Shown here: piece by piece, positions 1-23,820 of the stretch | How positions within the stretch are numbered: position 1 is the first letter of the stretch | Layout: every line of letters starts with the position of its first letter | Assembly (NCBI GenBank): GCA_021773015.1 | Contig: JAJFKW010000001.1 | Span: 558,001-622,000 of the forward strand | Length of the DNA stretch: 64,000 nt | Origin: Woeseia sp. | Lineage (GTDB): Bacteria > Pseudomonadota > Gammaproteobacteria > Steroidobacterales > Woeseiaceae | Reading direction: 5' to 3' | Position numbers and translations under genes: made by a program | The notes under the pieces: generated by a model | Databases searched by the model: none | Seen by the model: only the letters and a program-made list of their open reading frames with translations | What the model was told of the DNA's origin: nothing

Positions 1-1007
1 AAAGGTAAACCCAGCTGCCTCGCAATTTGCCCGCTTGCCTGGGCCGCTTTGGTGTATTCCGGCGTACCAAGCGCGGGTGCTCCGCTTTTCATATCAACAT
101 TGGAGGCAAAAGCGCCGTACATAACGGGTGCACCGGCCTGTATACATTGAGCAAAAGTAACGACTGCCAGGACCTCTGCAGTTTGTTGGACGAGTGTCCC
201 CGCGAGCGTCGCCGGGCTCATCGAACCCGCCAATGTGAACGGTGTAATCGCAGAGACTTGCCCCGCCCGCGCGAGTTCAACCACCGCCTCAGTCATAGGA
301 ATATCGAACTGCATTGGCGAATTGGTGTTGATGATACCCAATACAGCCGGTTCTTTGGCCAACTCATCGCGACTAGCATGCAATGCGATGCAAGCCATCT
401 CAATGGAGTCCTTTGCGCGTTCGCCACCCAATGCATAGGACTGACAATTCTTGTCCAAGTAGCGATATTGGGCAAGATAGGTGTCGAGATGTCGTGTCTC
501 TGGCGGCAGATCCATCGGTTCAAATGACATCCCACCTTCTTGGTGAATGATATTCAGGCTTTGAATCAGACGAAAATAATTGCACAGATCTGCGTAGGTA
601 CCCGGTCTCCTGCCGTTGTCGATGTCGCTGCAAAACGCCGGACCGCCAACCGCCGCAAACACCATCCTATTGCCACCTAAGCTGAGGTCCTTTTCAGGGT
701 TACGCGCCCGCAAGGTGAATTCCGCCGGTGCCAAAGCCACTTTTTCACGTACCAACTCCACGGGGAAACGCACAATTTGCGTACCTTCATCTACGTCCGC
801 ACCCATCTCGCGCATAAATTTTCTGCTACCGGGCTCAAGAAATTTCATACCGTAGCTTTGCAGTACTGACAGTGCCGCCTCAATGATCGCGTTGACCTGA
901 TCGGCGCTGATAACCTCTATTGGCGCATAGGGATTGATGACATTGCGCCATGGCAATTGTTGGATTCCACTTACAACACGTTTTTCGCGCCGTCTACGCC
1001 TGCTCAT
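1..1007 (-). CDS. Trimethylamine methyltransferase (MttB) family protein, 3' truncated by window edge
   Basis: The minus strand is open from an ATG at 1007 to the window edge, giving about 335 residues with the C-terminus missing. The start MSRRRRREKR is strikingly arginine-rich. It is followed by NPYAPIEVISADQV and an EAALSVLQSYGMKFL-type segment characteristic of the MttB family of corrinoid-dependent methyltransferases, then GGNRMVFAAVGGPAF. No in-frame amber codon is seen in the visible part, so it is a non-pyrrolysine homologue, a group that includes glycine-betaine and other quaternary-amine demethylases. It is divergent from a second family member at 1277. No corrinoid protein gene is visible nearby. 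Family assignment is firm; the substrate is unknown. Confidence 0.8.
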   Translation of the reverse strand, partial: MSRRRRREKRVVSGIQQLPWRNVINPYAPIEVISADQVNAIIEAALSVLQSYGMKFLEPGSRKFMREMGADVDEGTQIVRFPVELVREKVALAPAEFTLRARNPEKDLSLGGNRMVFAAVGGPAFCSDIDNGRRPGTYADLCNYFRLIQSLNIIHQEGGMSFEPMDLPPETRHLDTYLAQYRYLDKNCQSYALGGERAKDSIEMACIALHASRDELAKEPAVLGIINTNSPMQFDIPMTEAVVELARAGQVSAITPFTLAGSMSPATLAGTLVQQTAEVLAVVTFAQCIQAGAPVMYGAFASNVDMKSGAPALGTPEYTKAAQASGQIARQLGLP

Positions 1008-1276
1008 TGAATATTCTCATTGGATATTTAAGCCCACAAAGTGAAGTCGCCGCCTGCTAACCTTATCTCACTCTTTAAAGTACTACTTTGAAGCTGGCAC
1101 GATATGAAAATGTGCGAATTGTCATGCCATTTTGCGTCGGCGGTTCACAAGATGAAAGAAATCGCGCTGATTCGTCGTTTTCGTACCCAGCGAGTCGGGT
1201 TGTAGCGCATAATTCTGATGGAACCTGGGCCCCTGCGTACACATGAACGTCAATTACACATAGACCATAGAAATAT
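1008..1276. other. Intergenic region between divergent MttB-family genes
   Basis: About 270 bp separates the two divergent methyltransferase genes and must hold both promoters. I see no clear riboswitch, dyad operator or convincing small ORF here; the minus-strand ORF at 1075-1362 runs into the coding sequence of the downstream gene and looks spurious. Confidence 0.4.
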
Positions 1277-2815
1277 ATGCGACCAACTCTCAACATGCTT
1301 TCTGGCAACCTCATCGAAAAAATACTCGATGAGTCAAAACGCATAATGTCGGAAACCGGCATGGAAATTCGCGGCCAAGCACTGCGGCAACGTTTGCTAG
1401 ATCATGGATTGAAAACAGACGATTCCGGGCAACGGATATTTTTTCCCGCTGACGTCGTTGATAAAGCAATAGAGACAGCACCTAGCCTGTTTGAATTGTT
1501 CGATCGTGATGGCAACGTTCATGCAAGACTTGGCGGCAATAACGTGCACTATGTGCCAGGCTCAAGTGGTCTAAAAATCCTCGACCACCGCAGCGGTGAA
1601 ACACGTTTGTCGAACTCAAAGGACTTCATCGAATACGCGCGACTCTGCGACGGTCTTGAGCACATCGCTTACCTTGCAACCGCGTTTTCCACTAACAAGG
1701 ACATTGAGTCGCAGGTTTCTGACGCTTGGCGCTTATACATGACGTTGACGACCTCCAAGAAGCCTGTCGTATCCGGTGCATTCAGCGAGCATGGCGTGCC
1801 ACGCATGGTTGAGTTGATGCAGTTGTTTCGCGCCAACCGGGGCGACCTAATTCAAAAACCGATGTCGATTTTTACGATTACCGCAACCGGAAATTTTCGC
1901 TACGGCGAAGATTCCTGCCAAAATCTTTTGGATTGCGTGGAAGCCGGCATTCCTATTGAAATAGTTCCAGTCACGTTGATGGGTCTAATCGCGCCAGTGA
2001 CTATTGTCGGGGCCCTCGTATTTCACTGTGTCGACGTGTTGACTGGTATCACGATGGCGCAAATTGTCAAACCCGGTGCGCCCGTCTTGTTCGGCGGAGC
2101 GCCCGCCACATTTCACATGAAAGCGGCGAGTTCACCTATGGCGGCGATCGAAGCTCAACGCTTGAACGTCGCCTATGTATGCATCGCGAAGTCTCTCGAC
2201 TTGCCGACGCAAGCCTACATGGCGCTGAGCGATGGCAAGCTGCTCGATGCGCAAGCCGGCGGTGAGACTTTCAGCAGCGCGCTGTTGGCGGCGTTGGCGG
2301 GTGTGAATTCCGTGTCTGGGCCTGGAATGCTCGACTTTGTATTGACCTTCAGCTTGCCTAAGTTGGTATTCGACAATGAAGTCTGTGGCCAAGCATTGCA
2401 TTTTGTACGTGACGTCGAGCCGAAGGACGATCTACCGACAGCAGACCTCGTCGCGCAACTCTTGCAAGAAGATCACCTTATTACCGCACCTCACACGTTG
2501 CAGCACTGGCCGAAAGAGCTCTACCTAACAGACCCTGTCGTCGACCGTACGAATCGAGAATCCTGGGAGGAATCAGGTTCCACCGAATTGTATGAGCGGG
2601 CGTGCGCGGAAACCGAGCAGCGTCTTGTGGATTACCATCCGGTAGAGACCGACAAAGCACTCGACGAGGAAATGCGGCGCATCGTTAAGGAAGGCTTCAT
2701 GACTCAAGAGGAATTACCAGAATTGCCGGTCAAGGCGGAGGCACCTGCGGTGAAGGGCGTCGCTGGTCGGCGCGGACGCGCTGGCCGGCGCCGTGCGGCA
2801 CCAAAAAGCAATTAG
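1277..2815 (+). CDS. Trimethylamine methyltransferase (MttB) family protein
   Basis: This 512-residue protein has the length of MttB/MtgB-type methyltransferases, which move a methyl group from a quaternary or tertiary amine to a cob(I)alamin protein. Family signs are the N-terminal IMSETGMEI segment, [12 protein letters not shown] near residue 90, the KPVVSGAF and [12 protein letters not shown] strands, and [16 protein letters not shown] near residue 270. The frame is open throughout, so no amber/pyrrolysine codon is used. The C-terminus ends in a basic tail ([10 protein letters not shown]). Pyl-less relatives act on glycine betaine, proline betaine or carnitine, but the substrate cannot be read from sequence. 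No corrinoid protein or reductive activase gene is adjacent. The ATG at 1277 is not preceded by a strong RBS. Confidence 0.82.
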
Positions 2816-18193: not shown

Positions 18194-21100
18194 CTATGGA
18201 CTAACTTGCGCACGCAAGACGCGGTTGCGTATCCATAGCACGACAATCCCGATCAGTAACAACAATATGAGTATCAGGCAAATCCAGAACATGACGTTGT
18301 CCGTCGGCTGCCCGCCGGCATCCGGCGCGCTTGGCGGTGCACGATTTTCGCCGTCTGTTGGGTCCGTACCGTTGGCAATTTCATCCGCATCAGAAACGCC
18401 GTCACCGTCGGTATCGCGATCCTTCGGTGAGGTTCCCGCCGCAAACTCATCTACATTGCTTACACCATCGCCGTCGATATCCTGATTGGCGTCGGCCGCG
18501 TCGTTCGGATCAAGGCCCCAGCCCAGTTCCCAGGGATCGGGCATGCCGTCGCCGTCCGTGTCCTCGGTCGCTTTATCGTCGTCTGCCGGATCAAGCGCGT
18601 CAGTGCCACTAAAGAACTCTGTACCATCGTCGACACCGCCATCATCGGTGTCGCGCTTGAACGGATCGGTGCCGATTGCCAACTCCTTCCAACTCAAGAG
18701 GCCATCGCGATCGGGATCTTTGAACACATCTTGTGGATCGTCAGGGTCAAATCCGTGCGCATCCTCAATCACGTCAGTCACACGGTCGCCATCGCTGTCG
18801 ACTTCCTCAACATAGAGACCAAGCGGGAACACGCGCGACCTTGCAACACCGTCGTCACCCGTCCACTGAGCGGTTGCCTCTGCGTGAATCATGCCGCCCT
18901 TGTTCGTTCGCGAAATTTGGCCGGTGTATATCCCATCACCTGCACGCCGATCGCCGCCCTGTCCATCATCAAGCAGGGCAAAAACCTCGGCTCCATGTGC
19001 ATTGCTGGTCGCAAGGCCAGTTACCGTCGCATTGCTTATCGCCCGCTGCGACACCAGCGCCAACGCAACAGTAATGGCTTCACCCGGTTTTGGCGTTCGC
19101 GGAACGGACAATGTCTGGTCCTCAATTTCTACGCCATTAATTCCGGGTACCGCATTGAAAAATCCGTGCGCGATGCTTGCACCACTAAGTGTAATCACTG
19201 TTCGTAGCTCATTGCGCGGCGGCATTAAGAGCTGCCAAACGCCGGCAACCGGCGAGTCAATCCGGAATACGAAATTCGTATTCCCACGGGAGCTTTGGAT
19301 CGCACTCGCATTCTGCCCCGGTGGCGGAATGAGATATATTGGATCATCTATCGTCGTTGCCCAATTCAGCGATAGCGTCGCATAACTTAGGCCGGGCTCG
19401 ATAGGGACAGGCACGATTTCAGCACGGGTTTCCCGTAGCAACGGATTGTCAGGCAGCTTTACTATTTTCACTTTGCCGGTGTTGTCATACACAAATTGTT
19501 TCAGTCGATTTTGTCCCGATACTGCGTTGTGAAAATGCTCGTAAGCGTTGGCCAGGCGGTACGGGAGCACCAACTCACTCAGCGTAACCGGAGCCTGAGC
19601 ATGCGCGGTGCGAGTAACGAAACTGCCGACGTTTTCGAGCATTGAAGTCGCGTTTTCCGGCGAAGGATCGAGATCAACGATCAGCGGGTTACCGCCAGTC
19701 AGAGCCGCTATTTGTCCCATCAACCCGGGATCGGAATCCGGCCCGAGTGACAGTGTGTGGATCCTCACATCGTTGTTATCGTCACTGTCGGAATTAACCA
19801 CGACGAATTCGTTATGAACCGATACTCCGGTATCGGGAACTGCAGAATTACAGGCGACACCGCTATGAGTACCCCAGTAACGCGGAACGTTTTGTTTGCC
19901 GTCACTCAACAAAATTATTGAACGCAGCCGGTTACTCATCGCCGCACCGCTGTCCAAATTCGTTAGACCGCGCAATAGTCCCTGGCCAAGGGGTGTGCAT
20001 CCAGCCGGTGTCAATAGCCCGATCTGTGTATCGGTAGGACCACGAGCGATCGACGCGACATCAAGTCCCTGCACATCCGATGCGCTGGTACCGGAATAAC
20101 GCACAGCACCGACCCGGTCGTCGTCGTGCAAGGTGTCGAGGTAAAGTGATGCAGCATTAACGGCCGACTCCATTTTGCGGTCGTCTTCCATGCTTCCGGA
20201 TGTGTCGACTACCAACACAGTGTCGGCAAAGCGCGGGTCGCCAAGGACAACGGCGTTCGGTTGAGTTTTGGTGATTGCCGCATTGCACAGGCGGTAGGTG
20301 ACTGCCAGATCCTGCACGCCGGCGCCGGCGGGCACGTCAACAACCAACCAGTATTCATTGCCGACGCGTTCGCCGGTAACGACAGCAGCGTTTGCAGTGC
20401 CCAAGGTCACCGAGAAAGCGTCGATGTCCGGCACGAAGTTCAACGGCTTATAGCTCATGCGTACCAGCATGCGTCCAGTGCCGTCGCCGCGAATGAGTTC
20501 GATGGAACTCTCCGTTGGCGACAGGATATTGAATGACAGTCCTGTCTTGCTGCTGTCGCCAAGTGCGGGTACGAGATCGACAATGTCCGGTCGAGAATCG
20601 GTTGAGGCAAGCGTTGCGCTCTGTTGCGTTGGCACAGGGAAGTCGCGCGCCGTAACCGACCAATTTAATGCTGTAATTGATTCTCCTGCATCGAAACCCT
20701 GGGTTAACGCACGACAATCAAGGCGCGCCTGGTAGGTTAGTGCGCTCGCCCATTTGAGGGGCACCGCCGAGCTACTCGCTACGTTGCCATTCGAACCAAC
20801 TGTATCCCACTGCAAGTCGGCATCGATCTCATCAATATCAACCAGCCGATCGCTAATGCGCACTCGAAATACCGCCGCCGGATTGCCGGTCGCTGACAGA
20901 AACAGGCGCGGCGTATCGATGCGAGGTGGATTCGGGTCTGCCGGACTCGGCATATTGTTGCGTACTATCTTGGGATCGCCGAGAACGTTTGATGTTGATC
21001 GGCTATCGTTGCCCCACACCATGTCGAGATCTCCATCGCGATCGACGTCTCCAAAAGCGACCGCGACCTGTGATGAACCTGCACCGACAGGATTCAAGAC

Positions 21101-22378
21101 CGCATCATTGTCCGAACGCGTCAACGCTGTGCCACCGTTATTGAGATACAAGGCGTTTGCGCGCCATTGACCACCGTCGGGTTCCGGAACTGCGATGTCG
21201 AGAAAGTCGTCATGATTGATGTCCCCAATAACCGCATCGTACGACGTCCCGTCCATTCCCGCGGGTAGTGCCGGCACGAATACCGAACCGGAAAATCCGA
21301 AATTGCCGTCCCCAAGAATCACCCGGTCAGTCTGCGAAACGCCGGTCCAGTCTACGACGGCGAGGTAAAGATCGAGGTTGCGATCGCGATTGAAATCGAA
21401 CATCGCAAAATTTGCGATGTAGGTGTTACTGCCAAGGCCATCGTAGGGAGTGCGCGGGAGCCAATCCACCAAACCATTGCCGTCGACGTCGCCACCGTTC
21501 TCAAAAATTTCCAAAATCGGTGGCCGCACCTCGCTGCCACCCGACTCCACGCTGGAGTAATTTCGAGAATGTGAAATCAGCAAGTCCAGCCTGCCGTCAT
21601 TATTCAAATCGGCGAATTTTACTGCGTGGCTGGAGCTTTCGCTTTCGCCCGCAATTGTTGTCGAGTCGGCACCGAAAAGCTCAAAATTAAGCGGCGCCCG
21701 ATTGAAAAATCCGGCACCGTCGTTGTAAACCAGCGCGCTCGGCCCCCACATTCTCGGGTCGTCAATGCCGGGCGAATTACCTCCATTGAAATCGTGGGTG
21801 CGATTTGCAAACAGCAAGTCGATATCTCCATCGCCATCCGCATCGCCGGCGAACGAGTCGTCCCATACCTCGGTGTTATCAATACGCACAAAAGACGGCA
21901 GTCGCATGGTTTCGTCGGCAAACACGCCGCCATTGTTTATGTACAACAGGTTGCCATGCGGACTCGTGTGTACGATATCGTAATCTCCATCGTCATCCAC
22001 ATCGACGAAGTCCGCGTCGTATGTGCCGCGATCAGGGGCCGGATTCAGGAACGGCAACGCCGTAGCTGTTTGGTCGGCAAACGTTGTACCGCTCCAGAGA
22101 TACAGCGTATCCAACTGACCGTTGCTCGGCCGCGTCAGCGGCAGGTAAAGCATTAGATTGCCGCCCGGCGACTCCGGCGCAAGAACAACGGATTTGTATT
22201 CGGAATCACGCGGATGGTCACTTGGCCAAGTGATGTAAGAACTATCCGCTGTGAGTGACACATCGTTTTGGGCTATCGCAACTCTCGACGAAAGAATTAC
22301 CAGTCCCAGGAAAACAGCCGCAACAGGTAGTAAATTGTATAGGGCGTAGCGACACGCCGCGCTTTTCTGACCAGTCAT
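18194..22378 (-). CDS. Giant secreted/anchored protein with FG-GAP repeats, VWA domain and TSP type-3 calcium repeats
   Basis: The 1394-residue protein starts at ATG 22378, with GGAGG seven bases before. A signal segment (AAVFLGLVILSSRVAIAQ) leads into FG-GAP/VCBS-like repeats at residues about 50-480, with many acidic Ca-binding loops such as DVDDDGDYDIV and DADGDGDIDLLF. A von Willebrand A domain begins near residue 720 (VLVVDTSGSMEDD, the MIDAS motif). An Ig-like section follows, then thrombospondin type-3 repeats from about 1190 (DTDGDGVSDADEIANGTDP). One transmembrane helix near residue 1363 with a short basic tail anchors it. It should be a calcium-stabilised surface adhesin or binding protein. 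The metzincin gene 126 bases upstream is probably co-transcribed. Confidence 0.82.
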   Translation of the reverse strand: MTGQKSAACRYALYNLLPVAAVFLGLVILSSRVAIAQNDVSLTADSSYITWPSDHPRDSEYKSVVLAPESPGGNLMLYLPLTRPSNGQLDTLYLWSGTTFADQTATALPFLNPAPDRGTYDADFVDVDDDGDYDIVHTSPHGNLLYINNGGVFADETMRLPSFVRIDNTEVWDDSFAGDADGDGDIDLLFANRTHDFNGGNSPGIDDPRMWGPSALVYNDGAGFFNRAPLNFELFGADSTTIAGESESSSHAVKFADLNNDGRLDLLISHSRNYSSVESGGSEVRPPILEIFENGGDVDGNGLVDWLPRTPYDGLGSNTYIANFAMFDFNRDRNLDLYLAVVDWTGVSQTDRVILGDGNFGFSGSVFVPALPAGMDGTSYDAVIGDINHDDFLDIAVPEPDGGQWRANALYLNNGGTALTRSDNDAVLNPVGAGSSQVAVAFGDVDRDGDLDMVWGNDSRSTSNVLGDPKIVRNNMPSPADPNPPRIDTPRLFLSATGNPAAVFRVRISDRLVDIDEIDADLQWDTVGSNGNVASSSAVPLKWASALTYQARLDCRALTQGFDAGESITALNWSVTARDFPVPTQQSATLASTDSRPDIVDLVPALGDSSKTGLSFNILSPTESSIELIRGDGTGRMLVRMSYKPLNFVPDIDAFSVTLGTANAAVVTGERVGNEYWLVVDVPAGAGVQDLAVTYRLCNAAITKTQPNAVVLGDPRFADTVLVVDTSGSMEDDRKMESAVNAASLYLDTLHDDDRVGAVRYSGTSASDVQGLDVASIARGPTDTQIGLLTPAGCTPLGQGLLRGLTNLDSGAAMSNRLRSIILLSDGKQNVPRYWGTHSGVACNSAVPDTGVSVHNEFVVVNSDSDDNNDVRIHTLSLGPDSDPGLMGQIAALTGGNPLIVDLDPSPENATSMLENVGSFVTRTAHAQAPVTLSELVLPYRLANAYEHFHNAVSGQNRLKQFVYDNTGKVKIVKLPDNPLLRETRAEIVPVPIEPGLSYATLSLNWATTIDDPIYLIPPPGQNASAIQSSRGNTNFVFRIDSPVAGVWQLLMPPRNELRTVITLSGASIAHGFFNAVPGINGVEIEDQTLSVPRTPKPGEAITVALALVSQRAISNATVTGLATSNAHGAEVFALLDDGQGGDRRAGDGIYTGQISRTNKGGMIHAEATAQWTGDDGVARSRVFPLGLYVEEVDSDGDRVTDVIEDAHGFDPDDPQDVFKDPDRDGLLSWKELAIGTDPFKRDTDDGGVDDGTEFFSGTDALDPADDDKATEDTDGDGMPDPWELGWGLDPNDAADANQDIDGDGVSNVDEFAAGTSPKDRDTDGDGVSDADEIANGTDPTDGENRAPPSAPDAGGQPTDNVMFWICLILILLLLIGIVVLWIRNRVLRAQVSP

Positions 22379-22503
22379 TTTGACCTCCGATGGGGTCGGA
22401 CCCGATTCCATGTGCGAATCGGACCCAATACTTTTATCTCTAGGGACGATTCATCTAATTCGCGATCCCTACTCTCGCTATCAACTACGTCATTTGCCTC
22501 AGC

Positions 22504-23487
22504 TCAATCGTCGCCCTTACGTACGCCGGCAAGTTCGAGATATCGTGCATGAAGCTCTCTGAGCCTCACGCCGAGTCCCCGACGGGTGAAGCAAACACCG
22601 ATCTGACTAACAAAATTTGATGAACGCATCATGCAGCACTGCCAGTTCGTCAGTTGGTCCTTGGTGGCAGAGGCAGTACCGAACATGATGTTTTCCGGAT
22701 TGTCATCGTGAGAGAGATCGGCATGGTGGCCAAACTCGTGAACGACTGACGCACCGTTCGCGCCGTCCGTCAACACGACATAGCTGGTGCGCGAAATCGT
22801 GCACGCGTTAGCGTCTGCCATGCTGTCGACGAAGTACAGGGTCAGCGGCTTAATGGCGGAAAAAAACGATCGCGGACAGGTATTGCGTTCGAACCATGGA
22901 AACGCCCTGCTGAAAAACTGACTGGCACCGCATTCCACTCCGGTCATATGGTCCGCATTGCGCACGAACTCGACAGAGTGGAGACAAATATCGATGTTGC
23001 ATTGGTCGAGGTGACCATCAGCCTCCTCCAATATTGCCAGTGTCGCTTCTCGTGTGGTCGCGGCATTGCCATTGTCGTCGGTTAGAATTCTGACGCAGAC
23101 ATGCAGCCTGCGTCGCAATTCGACGCCGAGCAAACAAAAAAGGATATCGACTAGGCGCAGTGGCCAGTCGATAATCCAACACACCCAGCGAACGAGATAA
23201 ATTATGTAGGTAATAATCGTTTCGACGATCCTAATGATCGTTTTTACGACCTCCTCGCAAACCCATTCGATAACTTCCGTGATTACCTCAACTAACTCGG
23301 TAACCCAATCACAGAGTTTATTGAGTGGCCACGGCAACCAGGAACAGATCTTTTTCACCACCTCGACAACGGTGCGAATAATGGTCGTAACCCAACCGCA
23401 AACTGTTTCAATAACGGTTTCTACGATCTCAAGAATTGTGCGGACAACCCAGACAATGACATCCACAATCATTTGGCAGATTTGCAT
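22504..23487 (-). CDS. Metzincin-like zinc protease with Ile/Val/Trp-rich amphipathic repeat N-terminus
   Basis: The 327-residue protein has a clear start (AAGGAGA seven bases before ATG 23487). Residues 1-120 are almost only I, V, W, T, E, K, R and C, in what appear to be two tandem units ending SWLPWPLNKL (49-58) and IIDWPLRLV (105-113). They read as long amphipathic helices rather than a classical signal peptide. The C-terminal half has HEFGHHADLSHD at residues 250-261, an HExxHxxxxxH zinc site with Asp where metzincins usually have Gly. NIM at 266-268 may be the Met-turn. Cysteines are frequent. Neighbouring the VWA/FG-GAP gene on the same strand, it may process or be delivered with that protein. 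Function is not known. Confidence 0.75.
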   Translation of the reverse strand: MQICQMIVDVIVWVVRTILEIVETVIETVCGWVTTIIRTVVEVVKKICSWLPWPLNKLCDWVTELVEVITEVIEWVCEEVVKTIIRIVETIITYIIYLVRWVCWIIDWPLRLVDILFCLLGVELRRRLHVCVRILTDDNGNAATTREATLAILEEADGHLDQCNIDICLHSVEFVRNADHMTGVECGASQFFSRAFPWFERNTCPRSFFSAIKPLTLYFVDSMADANACTISRTSYVVLTDGANGASVVHEFGHHADLSHDDNPENIMFGTASATKDQLTNWQCCMMRSSNFVSQIGVCFTRRGLGVRLRELHARYLELAGVRKGDD

Positions 23488-23820
23488 TAGCGGTCTCCTT
23501 TACGTTTATCGTGCTCTGGAATCTATGTTGTTGATTCGGCATCGATTGTTGAGACGTAATTCAGCGCGAATTTGTCTCTCTTGCCCGGTAAAGCGAGAGC
23601 TGAGCGTGAATTCCCTCATTGGCGCGACGCTTATGCGACTCATTTTTCTTATTGAATCGAAACGGGGCTCAGATCGAAGCTTTTCGAGTCAGGGTGTTTG
23701 TTGCTGGCTCGGTAGCGAAGAAGGTGCTACGAGCTAAGGTAATGCAAGCCCGATAGAATAACTTCCCAATCTCGTGCAAGATTGCCCCAATAACAAAATG
23801 CGAGACAGAGGGACAATCTA
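23488..23820. other. Intergenic region between divergent metzincin and methyltransferase genes
   Basis: No gene is supported in these 333 bases. They contain a copy of the GGGGCTCAGATCGAAG repeat at 23664-23679, nearly identical to the copy at 26467, and AT-rich stretches that could serve as promoters. The plus-strand ORF covering 23234-23737 is antisense to the repetitive metzincin N-terminus. Confidence 0.4.

Follow-up and report, generated by a model that had tools for sequence, protein, structure and literature searches.

A mirror-symmetric cysteine ladder in a putative N-terminal helical hairpin of a bacterial metzincin-like protein

Analysis of the window (the whole stretch of 64,000 nucleotides studied here) reveals a gene for a 327-residue protein that very probably combines an antiparallel, cysteine-laddered helical hairpin with a metzincin-like domain. 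The cysteines of the two arms of this hairpin are arranged in exact mirror symmetry, and the geometry of the arms suggests a plate with a single hydrophobic side, which may dock the protease on a lipid surface. The features of the gene are as follows:

22504..23487, minus strand: the whole gene, 327 amino acids, predicted N-terminal Cys-laddered hairpin and metzincin-like domain (open reading frame; full-length homolog L011, BLASTP E-value 2e-34 against P0002)
23495..23500, minus strand: ribosome-binding site AAGGAG, before the ATG at 23487-23485
23344..23487, minus strand: arm 1, residues 1-48, predicted helix with ladder cysteines C4, C30 and C48 (AlphaFold2 helix, cysteine mirror and periodicity)
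23311..23346, minus strand: turn C48-SWLPWPLNKL-C59 (Cx3Px6C), with WLPWPL invariant in four of four sequences
23131..23313, minus strand: arm 2, residues 59-119, predicted helix with ladder cysteines C59, C77 and C103, followed by C118 (AlphaFold2 helix, cysteine mirror and periodicity)
22603..23127, minus strand: metzincin-like domain, residues 121-295 (sub-cut-off profile matches and sequence alignments)
22708..22740, minus strand: putative zinc-binding motif HEFGHHADLSH, residues 250-260 (sequence; motif compared in four sequences)
22684..22692, minus strand: Met-turn candidate NIM, residues 266-268, with M268 eight residues past the third His (same spacing in four of four sequences)

The gene is real, with an intact frame of 327 residues and a ribosome-binding site, and such sites just upstream also support the starts of all four hairpin genes discussed below (that of the window, L011, L015 and L016). 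No signal peptide was found in any of these four hairpin proteins. In the window gene the frame is open for 331 codons in total and the cysteine ladder begins as early as residue 4 of the protein, so that there is no room for an N-terminal signal peptide, in agreement with the first-pass annotation, which had reported no classical one.

The family is rare and patchy in the genomes searched. Matches of any kind were found in 3 of 60, 6 of 396, 4 of 107 and 2 of 274 genomes, in 3 of 398 with the C-terminal 200 residues as the query, and in 4 of 60 with the protease alignment A3 (the window's own genome is counted each time, and the sets overlap); among the genomes surrounding that of the window, no full-length relative was found. 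Genome contigs were scanned with residues 1-133 only (i.e. the hairpin side) as the query, which gave 48 pattern matches, one of which was confirmed, namely L011 from Chloroflexi bacterium UBA6265 (Chloroflexota), a protein conserved over its whole length (29% identity in 307 aligned columns, BLASTP E-value 2e-34). In the class to which that genome belongs, the protein is carried by 3 of 158 genomes: L011's own, G1102 (with the full-length L015) and G1186 (with L016, truncated where its contig ends). Searching this class with the hairpin alone led back to these three genomes of the 158 and revealed no fusion of the hairpin to a different domain. When 301 genomes were drawn from the phylum, three matches emerged, namely both full-length proteins and L023 from G1335 (739-1407, minus strand; Chloroflexota), a hairpin-less version of the protease half with the canonical Gly in its zinc motif and only four cysteines. 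L023 is a natural counterpart for judging what the hairpin contributes. Identity to the window sequence amounts to 40-45% in the hairpin (alignment A4) and 26-30% in the protease half (A3), and lateral transfer may lie behind the patchy spread, the organism of the window presumably being from a phylum other than Chloroflexota.

Several other matches were set aside: that of L006 has three stops in the matched frame, those of L010 and L013 lie in low-complexity frames, and L028 is an astacin-like frame (assigned by eye). Three more were taken as chance, i.e. L002 (at the upstream end of a serine-hydrolase-like frame, named by eye), L005 (overlapping the frame of another enzyme, also named by eye) and L008 (where frames have at most 90 codons). 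On plasmids, neither the whole protein (E≤0.01) nor the hairpin (E≤10) had a match; the C-terminal 200 residues weakly matched two plasmid records (E-values 4 and 7) and the L011 protein one (E-value 0.5). Viral contigs contained no confirmed relative and no match to two WLPWP-type patterns, and none of the paper titles listed in literature searches describes such a bacterial protein.

The N-terminal region had been described in the first-pass annotation as composed almost only of I, V, W, T, E, K, R and C and as built of two tandem units. Its composition is indeed extreme: among the 46 window frames that span at least 200 codons from stop to stop, a 120-residue stretch of this protein reaches 78% of these residues, compared to 57% in the runner-up frame and 36% on average, and its contents of I+V (38%) and W+C (13%) are also the highest. 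The words "almost only" are loose, as Leu makes up a further 9% of residues 1-120. The tandem units, on the other hand, had to be abandoned: the second WPL (in IIDWPLRLV) is not kept in place, as both homologs covering that site lack its Pro and have one only further along, inside an inserted GIPEF/GLPEF, and the cysteines are mirror-symmetric about WLPWPL instead, a regularity absent from the first-pass annotation.

The mirror is exact in all four hairpin sequences. In the window protein the pairs are 4/103, 30/77 and 48/59, each summing to 107; in L011 they are 4/119, 30/93, 48/75 and 56/67 (sum 123), with identical positions in L016, and in L015 5/120, 31/94, 49/76 and 57/68 (sum 125). The centre of the mirror is given by the two cysteines that flank WLPWPL, and every other cysteine of arm 1 has its exact partner in arm 2. 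In a random model, three mirror pairs about any centre (6 Cys in 106 residues) arose in 210 of 300,000 trials and four pairs (8 Cys in 122) in 5 of 300,000, where the cysteines were placed uniformly, and these figures would be higher if cysteines favoured particular positions in helices. Both arms of the Chloroflexota hairpins are eight residues longer than those of the window protein, with the register kept and one Cys pair added, and the simplest explanation of such equal growth on both sides is antiparallel pairing of the arms. AlphaFold2, run from two sequences, predicts helices at residues 2-48 and 55-119, with block pLDDT values of 80-88 over residues 11-90. As judged from the alignments together with this model, the N-terminus is very probably an antiparallel helical hairpin and not a tandem repeat, and disulfides probably hold its two helices together as a plate with a hydrophobic side.

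The full-length hairpin proteins contain 16, 14 and 14 cysteines in total, and the hairpin-less L023 contains 4. C118 and C131 are 13 residues apart in both lineages, and L023 lacks the two together, as a C118-C131 bond would predict. For two further pairs, C186-C229 and C204-C285, we can offer a guess from this one hairpin-less relative, in which the positions of C204 and C285 are without cysteine, and those of C186 and C229 have one in place or directly adjacent; the alignment near C186 and C204 is uncertain, with C204 matched to a cysteine of L011 in A1 and A5 and not in A3 (in the first row of A3 the opening M stands for Leu119, encoded by TTG). Paired cysteines imply an oxidising place.

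Analysis of the arms supports the earlier view of the N-terminus as amphipathic. Hydrophobic periodicity peaks at 3.67 residues, i.e. an 11/3 pattern, in seven of the eight arms (3.6 in arm 1 of L016), and periodicity of the beta type is low. With 98.18 degrees per residue, whole arms and three hydrophobicity scales, 30 of 30 ladder cysteines are found at the + edge of this face, and in nine other settings 24-29 of the 30 do. The cysteines are turned off the centre of the face by about +75 degrees in both arms of the window protein, and by about +42 to +47 and +100 to +107 degrees in the Chloroflexota arms. For antiparallel helices joined on the cysteine line, the cosine between the two hydrophobic directions equals minus cos(a1+a2), and a coiled coil with its core between the helices gives -1; the four hairpins give 0.79-0.90, so that both hydrophobic faces would be on the same side, because the cysteines occupy one edge of the face in both arms. 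Co-direction of the faces alone was matched by random Cys ladders in 12-30% of the trials (null 0.12-0.30), and co-direction combined with tight grouping of the cysteines has a joint null of 0.004-0.020 per sequence, values that represent only two lineages, since the three Chloroflexota sequences are related. Taken together, these sequence features support, but do not prove, a laddered amphipathic plate.

Part of arm 2 might instead span a membrane; the first-pass annotation had proposed membrane insertion or permeabilisation, or self-assembly, for this region. In all four hairpins the top-scoring 19-residue segment has a Wimley-White octanol sum that favours membrane transfer (-10.3 to -13.5; -10.9 at residue 92 of the window protein), most strongly so towards the end of arm 2 in L011 and L016, and these sums would fit spanning in place of a plate. 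The geometry of the arms favours a hairpin that rests on a surface or pairs through its face with another. In the Chloroflexota members, arm 1 has a far lower hydrophobicity (mean H -0.18 to 0.08). The last part of arm 2, at about residues 100-140 of L011, L015 and L016, is strongly transmembrane-like on the Kyte-Doolittle scale (2.5-2.6 over 19 residues), and the window protein, with a maximum of 1.85 at residue 3, is less so; the two lineages may accordingly sit differently in the membrane.

The C-terminal half can be described as metzincin-like, with its membership suggested by the motif and by sub-threshold matches. In the translation of the window gene, the zinc-site stretch HEFGHHADLSHD corresponds to residues 250-261 and NIM to residues 266-268. 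The pattern HExxHxxxxxH, with the third His six residues past the second, is present in all four sequences examined, and at the sequence level all four also have N-[IL]-M, with the Met eight residues after the third His; in the window protein this His-to-Met spacing aligns without gaps with MMP-16. The proposal of a metzincin-like zinc site with NIM as its Met-turn is therefore borne out at the level of motifs, as is the Asp in place of the usual metzincin Gly in HEFGHHADLSH. This Asp is found at position 8 in three of the four sequences, and L023 has the canonical Gly (HEVAHACGLWH). The substitution is not new: mirolysin, a metzincin of the pappalysin family, is described with Asp231 at the usual place of Gly (PMC6949598) and the lower pappalysins with Asn (PMC12237041), so that Gly at this position is not strictly defining for metzincins.

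A phmmer search matched residues 139-264 to the snake metalloproteinase leucurolysin-A (E-value 3e-4), and all four sequences matched the matrixin family M10 of Pfam below its cut-off. The window protein scored at best 16.8 bits against the gathering score of 24 for M10, 16.2 against 27 for Reprolysin_5, and 15.9 against the curated 145 for the NCBIfam archaemetzincin NF033823. The model of the catalytic half is poor (pLDDT 34.9); 18 of its 50 rows of structural neighbors are adamalysin-type by title, with Z-scores of 2.6-3.5, and the top row is unrelated, with a Z-score of 4.7. For the metzincin fold, a five-stranded sheet with backing and active-site helices, these adamalysin-type neighbors are no more than a hint. 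Two further sequences, L009 and L003, share the zinc-site region with the window protein. L009 (838-1881, plus strand), from a genome of the window's family, has HEFGHNFDLRH and NIM, i.e. the same Asp-for-Gly motif, and L003 (1063-2349, plus strand), from a genome of the same order, has HEYGHTVGLSH and reaches 20 bits against the 24 of Pfam M10; both have N-termini that are lipobox-like by eye.

Genomic neighborhood analysis revealed that the gene downstream of the hairpin gene starts after 92 bases on the same strand, and the two are possibly co-transcribed; a methyltransferase lies upstream, on the other strand. The downstream gene (18194-22411, minus strand) encodes a 1405-residue protein of surface type, with FG-GAP repeats, a VWA domain, a choice-of-anchor X domain and TSP3 repeats, an N-terminus that is Sec-like by eye, and a hydrophobic C-terminal segment. 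The neighbors differ in Chloroflexota, with an amidase at one locus and HMG-CoA reductase together with a solute-binding protein at the other. As no conserved neighbor was seen at the two Chloroflexota loci examined, no substrate is suggested.

The main reading that we propose, with a probability of about 0.5, is that of a protease docked on a lipid surface by the plate. The chain of residues 1-119 would turn at WLPWPL, and its two amphipathic helices, running antiparallel, would be joined along one edge by the disulfides C4-C103, C30-C77 and C48-C59 (four pairs in Chloroflexota), the cysteines being presumed oxidised. With both faces turned the same way, the result would be one broad face of Ile, Val and Trp, two helices wide and about 65 Å long (44 residues), opposite a charged face. 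Such a plate could lie on a membrane or another lipid surface and hold the metzincin-type zinc protease there, which would then cut nearby proteins. The mirror pairs and their conservation, the 11/3 pattern, the edge placement of the cysteines and the zinc-site motif with its spacing can be read from the sequences themselves, and the hairpin is predicted by AlphaFold2; from these we infer oxidised cysteines, an extracytoplasmic site, lipid binding and proteolysis. A bolder and rather doubtful version would see here a new prokaryotic domain, i.e. a disulfide-laddered one-sided plate that is a functional analog of saposin built on the 11/3 pattern, changes its length symmetrically (by equal numbers of residues and one cysteine pair across both arms) and docks a metzincin of an unnamed family on lipid, the protein being exported in the absence of a Sec signal, perhaps by means of the plate itself.

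The geometry of the hairpin would also suit self-assembly, in which the hydrophobic face pairs with that of another copy to give a soluble, disulfide-laddered four-helix dimer or a larger assembly that clusters the protease without lipid. A one-sided face suits such face-to-face dimers, and the structural neighbors of the hairpin model include many helical assemblies (PspA/Vipp1, chemoreceptor bundles), but long helices resemble many things structurally, the face of the window protein is unusually broad and rich in Trp, Ile and Val, and the Chloroflexota arms differ greatly in hydrophobicity; we regard self-assembly as possible, with the odds against it. The cysteines themselves bear on a different and less likely alternative, namely that the protein stays in the cytoplasm with its cysteines reduced, or that they bind metal, the mirror then reflecting packing rather than disulfides. 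Here the missing signal peptides (in four of four proteins, with starts backed by ribosome-binding sites) speak for an intracellular protein, and they also count against the lipid-docked reading, as paired cysteines imply an oxidising place and yet none of the four members has a signal peptide. The mirror argues the other way: each ladder cysteine has exactly one exact partner, the totals in the three full-length hairpin proteins are even, and C118 and C131 disappear together in L023.

The hairpin could also be a pro-domain lying over the active site, with the protease inactive until this segment is removed or lipid is encountered. Metzincins are commonly zymogens with N-terminal segments, and in promirolysin the Cys of a Cys-Gly motif is described as blocking the zinc (PMC6949598), a motif that has its like in C30-G31 of the window protein. 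However, the three relatives have His or Arg in place of the Gly that follows C30, and conservation is higher in the hairpin than in the protease half, which is unexpected for a discarded segment, so that we consider latency the least probable of these explanations and quite improbable. If docking on lipid is true, bacteria have a saposin-like means of holding a protease at a lipid surface. The mirror-symmetric Cys ladder would also be a sequence signature that predicts fold and register without alignment to known structures, and one that can be searched for in unannotated proteins. The lipid-docked reading also raises the question of the route by which a disulfide-stapled protein devoid of a signal peptide would reach an oxidising place.

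Comparison with known systems agrees with the earlier statement that no named family has this design: none was found in the Pfam, NCBIfam and PHROGs scans, and the hairpin belongs to no family of Pfam or NCBIfam at curated cut-offs. Two likenesses were rejected. That to phage tape-measure proteins (phrog_5493, E-value 1.6e-4 for the window member) reflects composition only, since the reversed sequences score alike (1.4e-4), and a Pfam match to the DisA glycoprotein (E-value 5.7e-4, absent in reversed sequences) stays below the cut-off (19.7 bits against 27) in one of the four members. Adamalysins/reprolysins (M12B), matrixins (M10) and pappalysins share with the window protein the HExxHxx[D]LxH motif, the N-x-M turn, the MMP-16 spacing and the Asp of mirolysin; the window protein differs from them in falling under the curated Pfam and NCBIfam cut-offs and in having no Sec signal, and we know of no such N-terminal hairpin in these families.

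The 11/3 hydrophobic periodicity is common to the 11-mer repeats of perilipins, alpha-synuclein and apolipoproteins, and the 11-mer helices of perilipins are described as targeting lipid droplets (PMC4807253); the hairpin is set apart, by description, by two Ile/Val/Trp-rich arms locked in an antiparallel ladder. The periplasmic coiled coil of MmpL4 is described as a long alpha-hairpin whose tip bears a conserved disulfide (PMC12803245). A chain of the MmpL5 complex is found among the structural neighbors of our hairpin model (Z-score 7.5 over 117 residues), but the MmpL4 hairpin, unlike ours, is an insert in a transporter, with one conserved tip disulfide and without a protease. Twin-CX9C (CHCH) proteins and alpha-hairpinins are also helical hairpins with disulfides between the helices, but they are much shorter and have CX9C and CX3C spacings, as opposed to the 26/18/8 of the window hairpin.

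The closest parallel is with saposins. The SapB domain and the plant-specific insert of plant aspartic proteases, the latter described as a membrane-active domain attached to a protease, have amphipathic helices linked by three conserved cystines (PMC5717070), comparable to the amphipathic arms and putative disulfides of the hairpin. In a profile search of the PDB with the hairpin (E≤10), 13 of 20 rows were saposins or the small subunit of acyloxyacyl hydrolase (best E-value 0.059), and the five matches of the reversed sequences included no saposin. Saposin cystines are nested, and saposin-like domains have a CxxC near the N-terminus and CxxC-type ends. The hairpin has nested mirror cysteines, putatively bonded, and the Cx10C of the central turn, and its Cx3Px6C turn aligns with that of saposin D; this turn pair alone matches in spacing, the other cysteines being 26 and 18 apart, with C4-C30 26 apart instead of CxxC, in two continuous arms, and Chloroflexota members have four pairs against the three of saposins. 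SapB_1 of Pfam was matched by one of the four members below its cut-off (E-value 0.55, 10.7 bits against 25.2), SapB_2 was absent from the 14 families listed at E≤10, and in the fold comparison saposin C (Z-score 6.5 over 73 residues) ranked below many unrelated long-helix rows. We accordingly describe the hairpin as resembling saposins by analogy and do not place it in their family.
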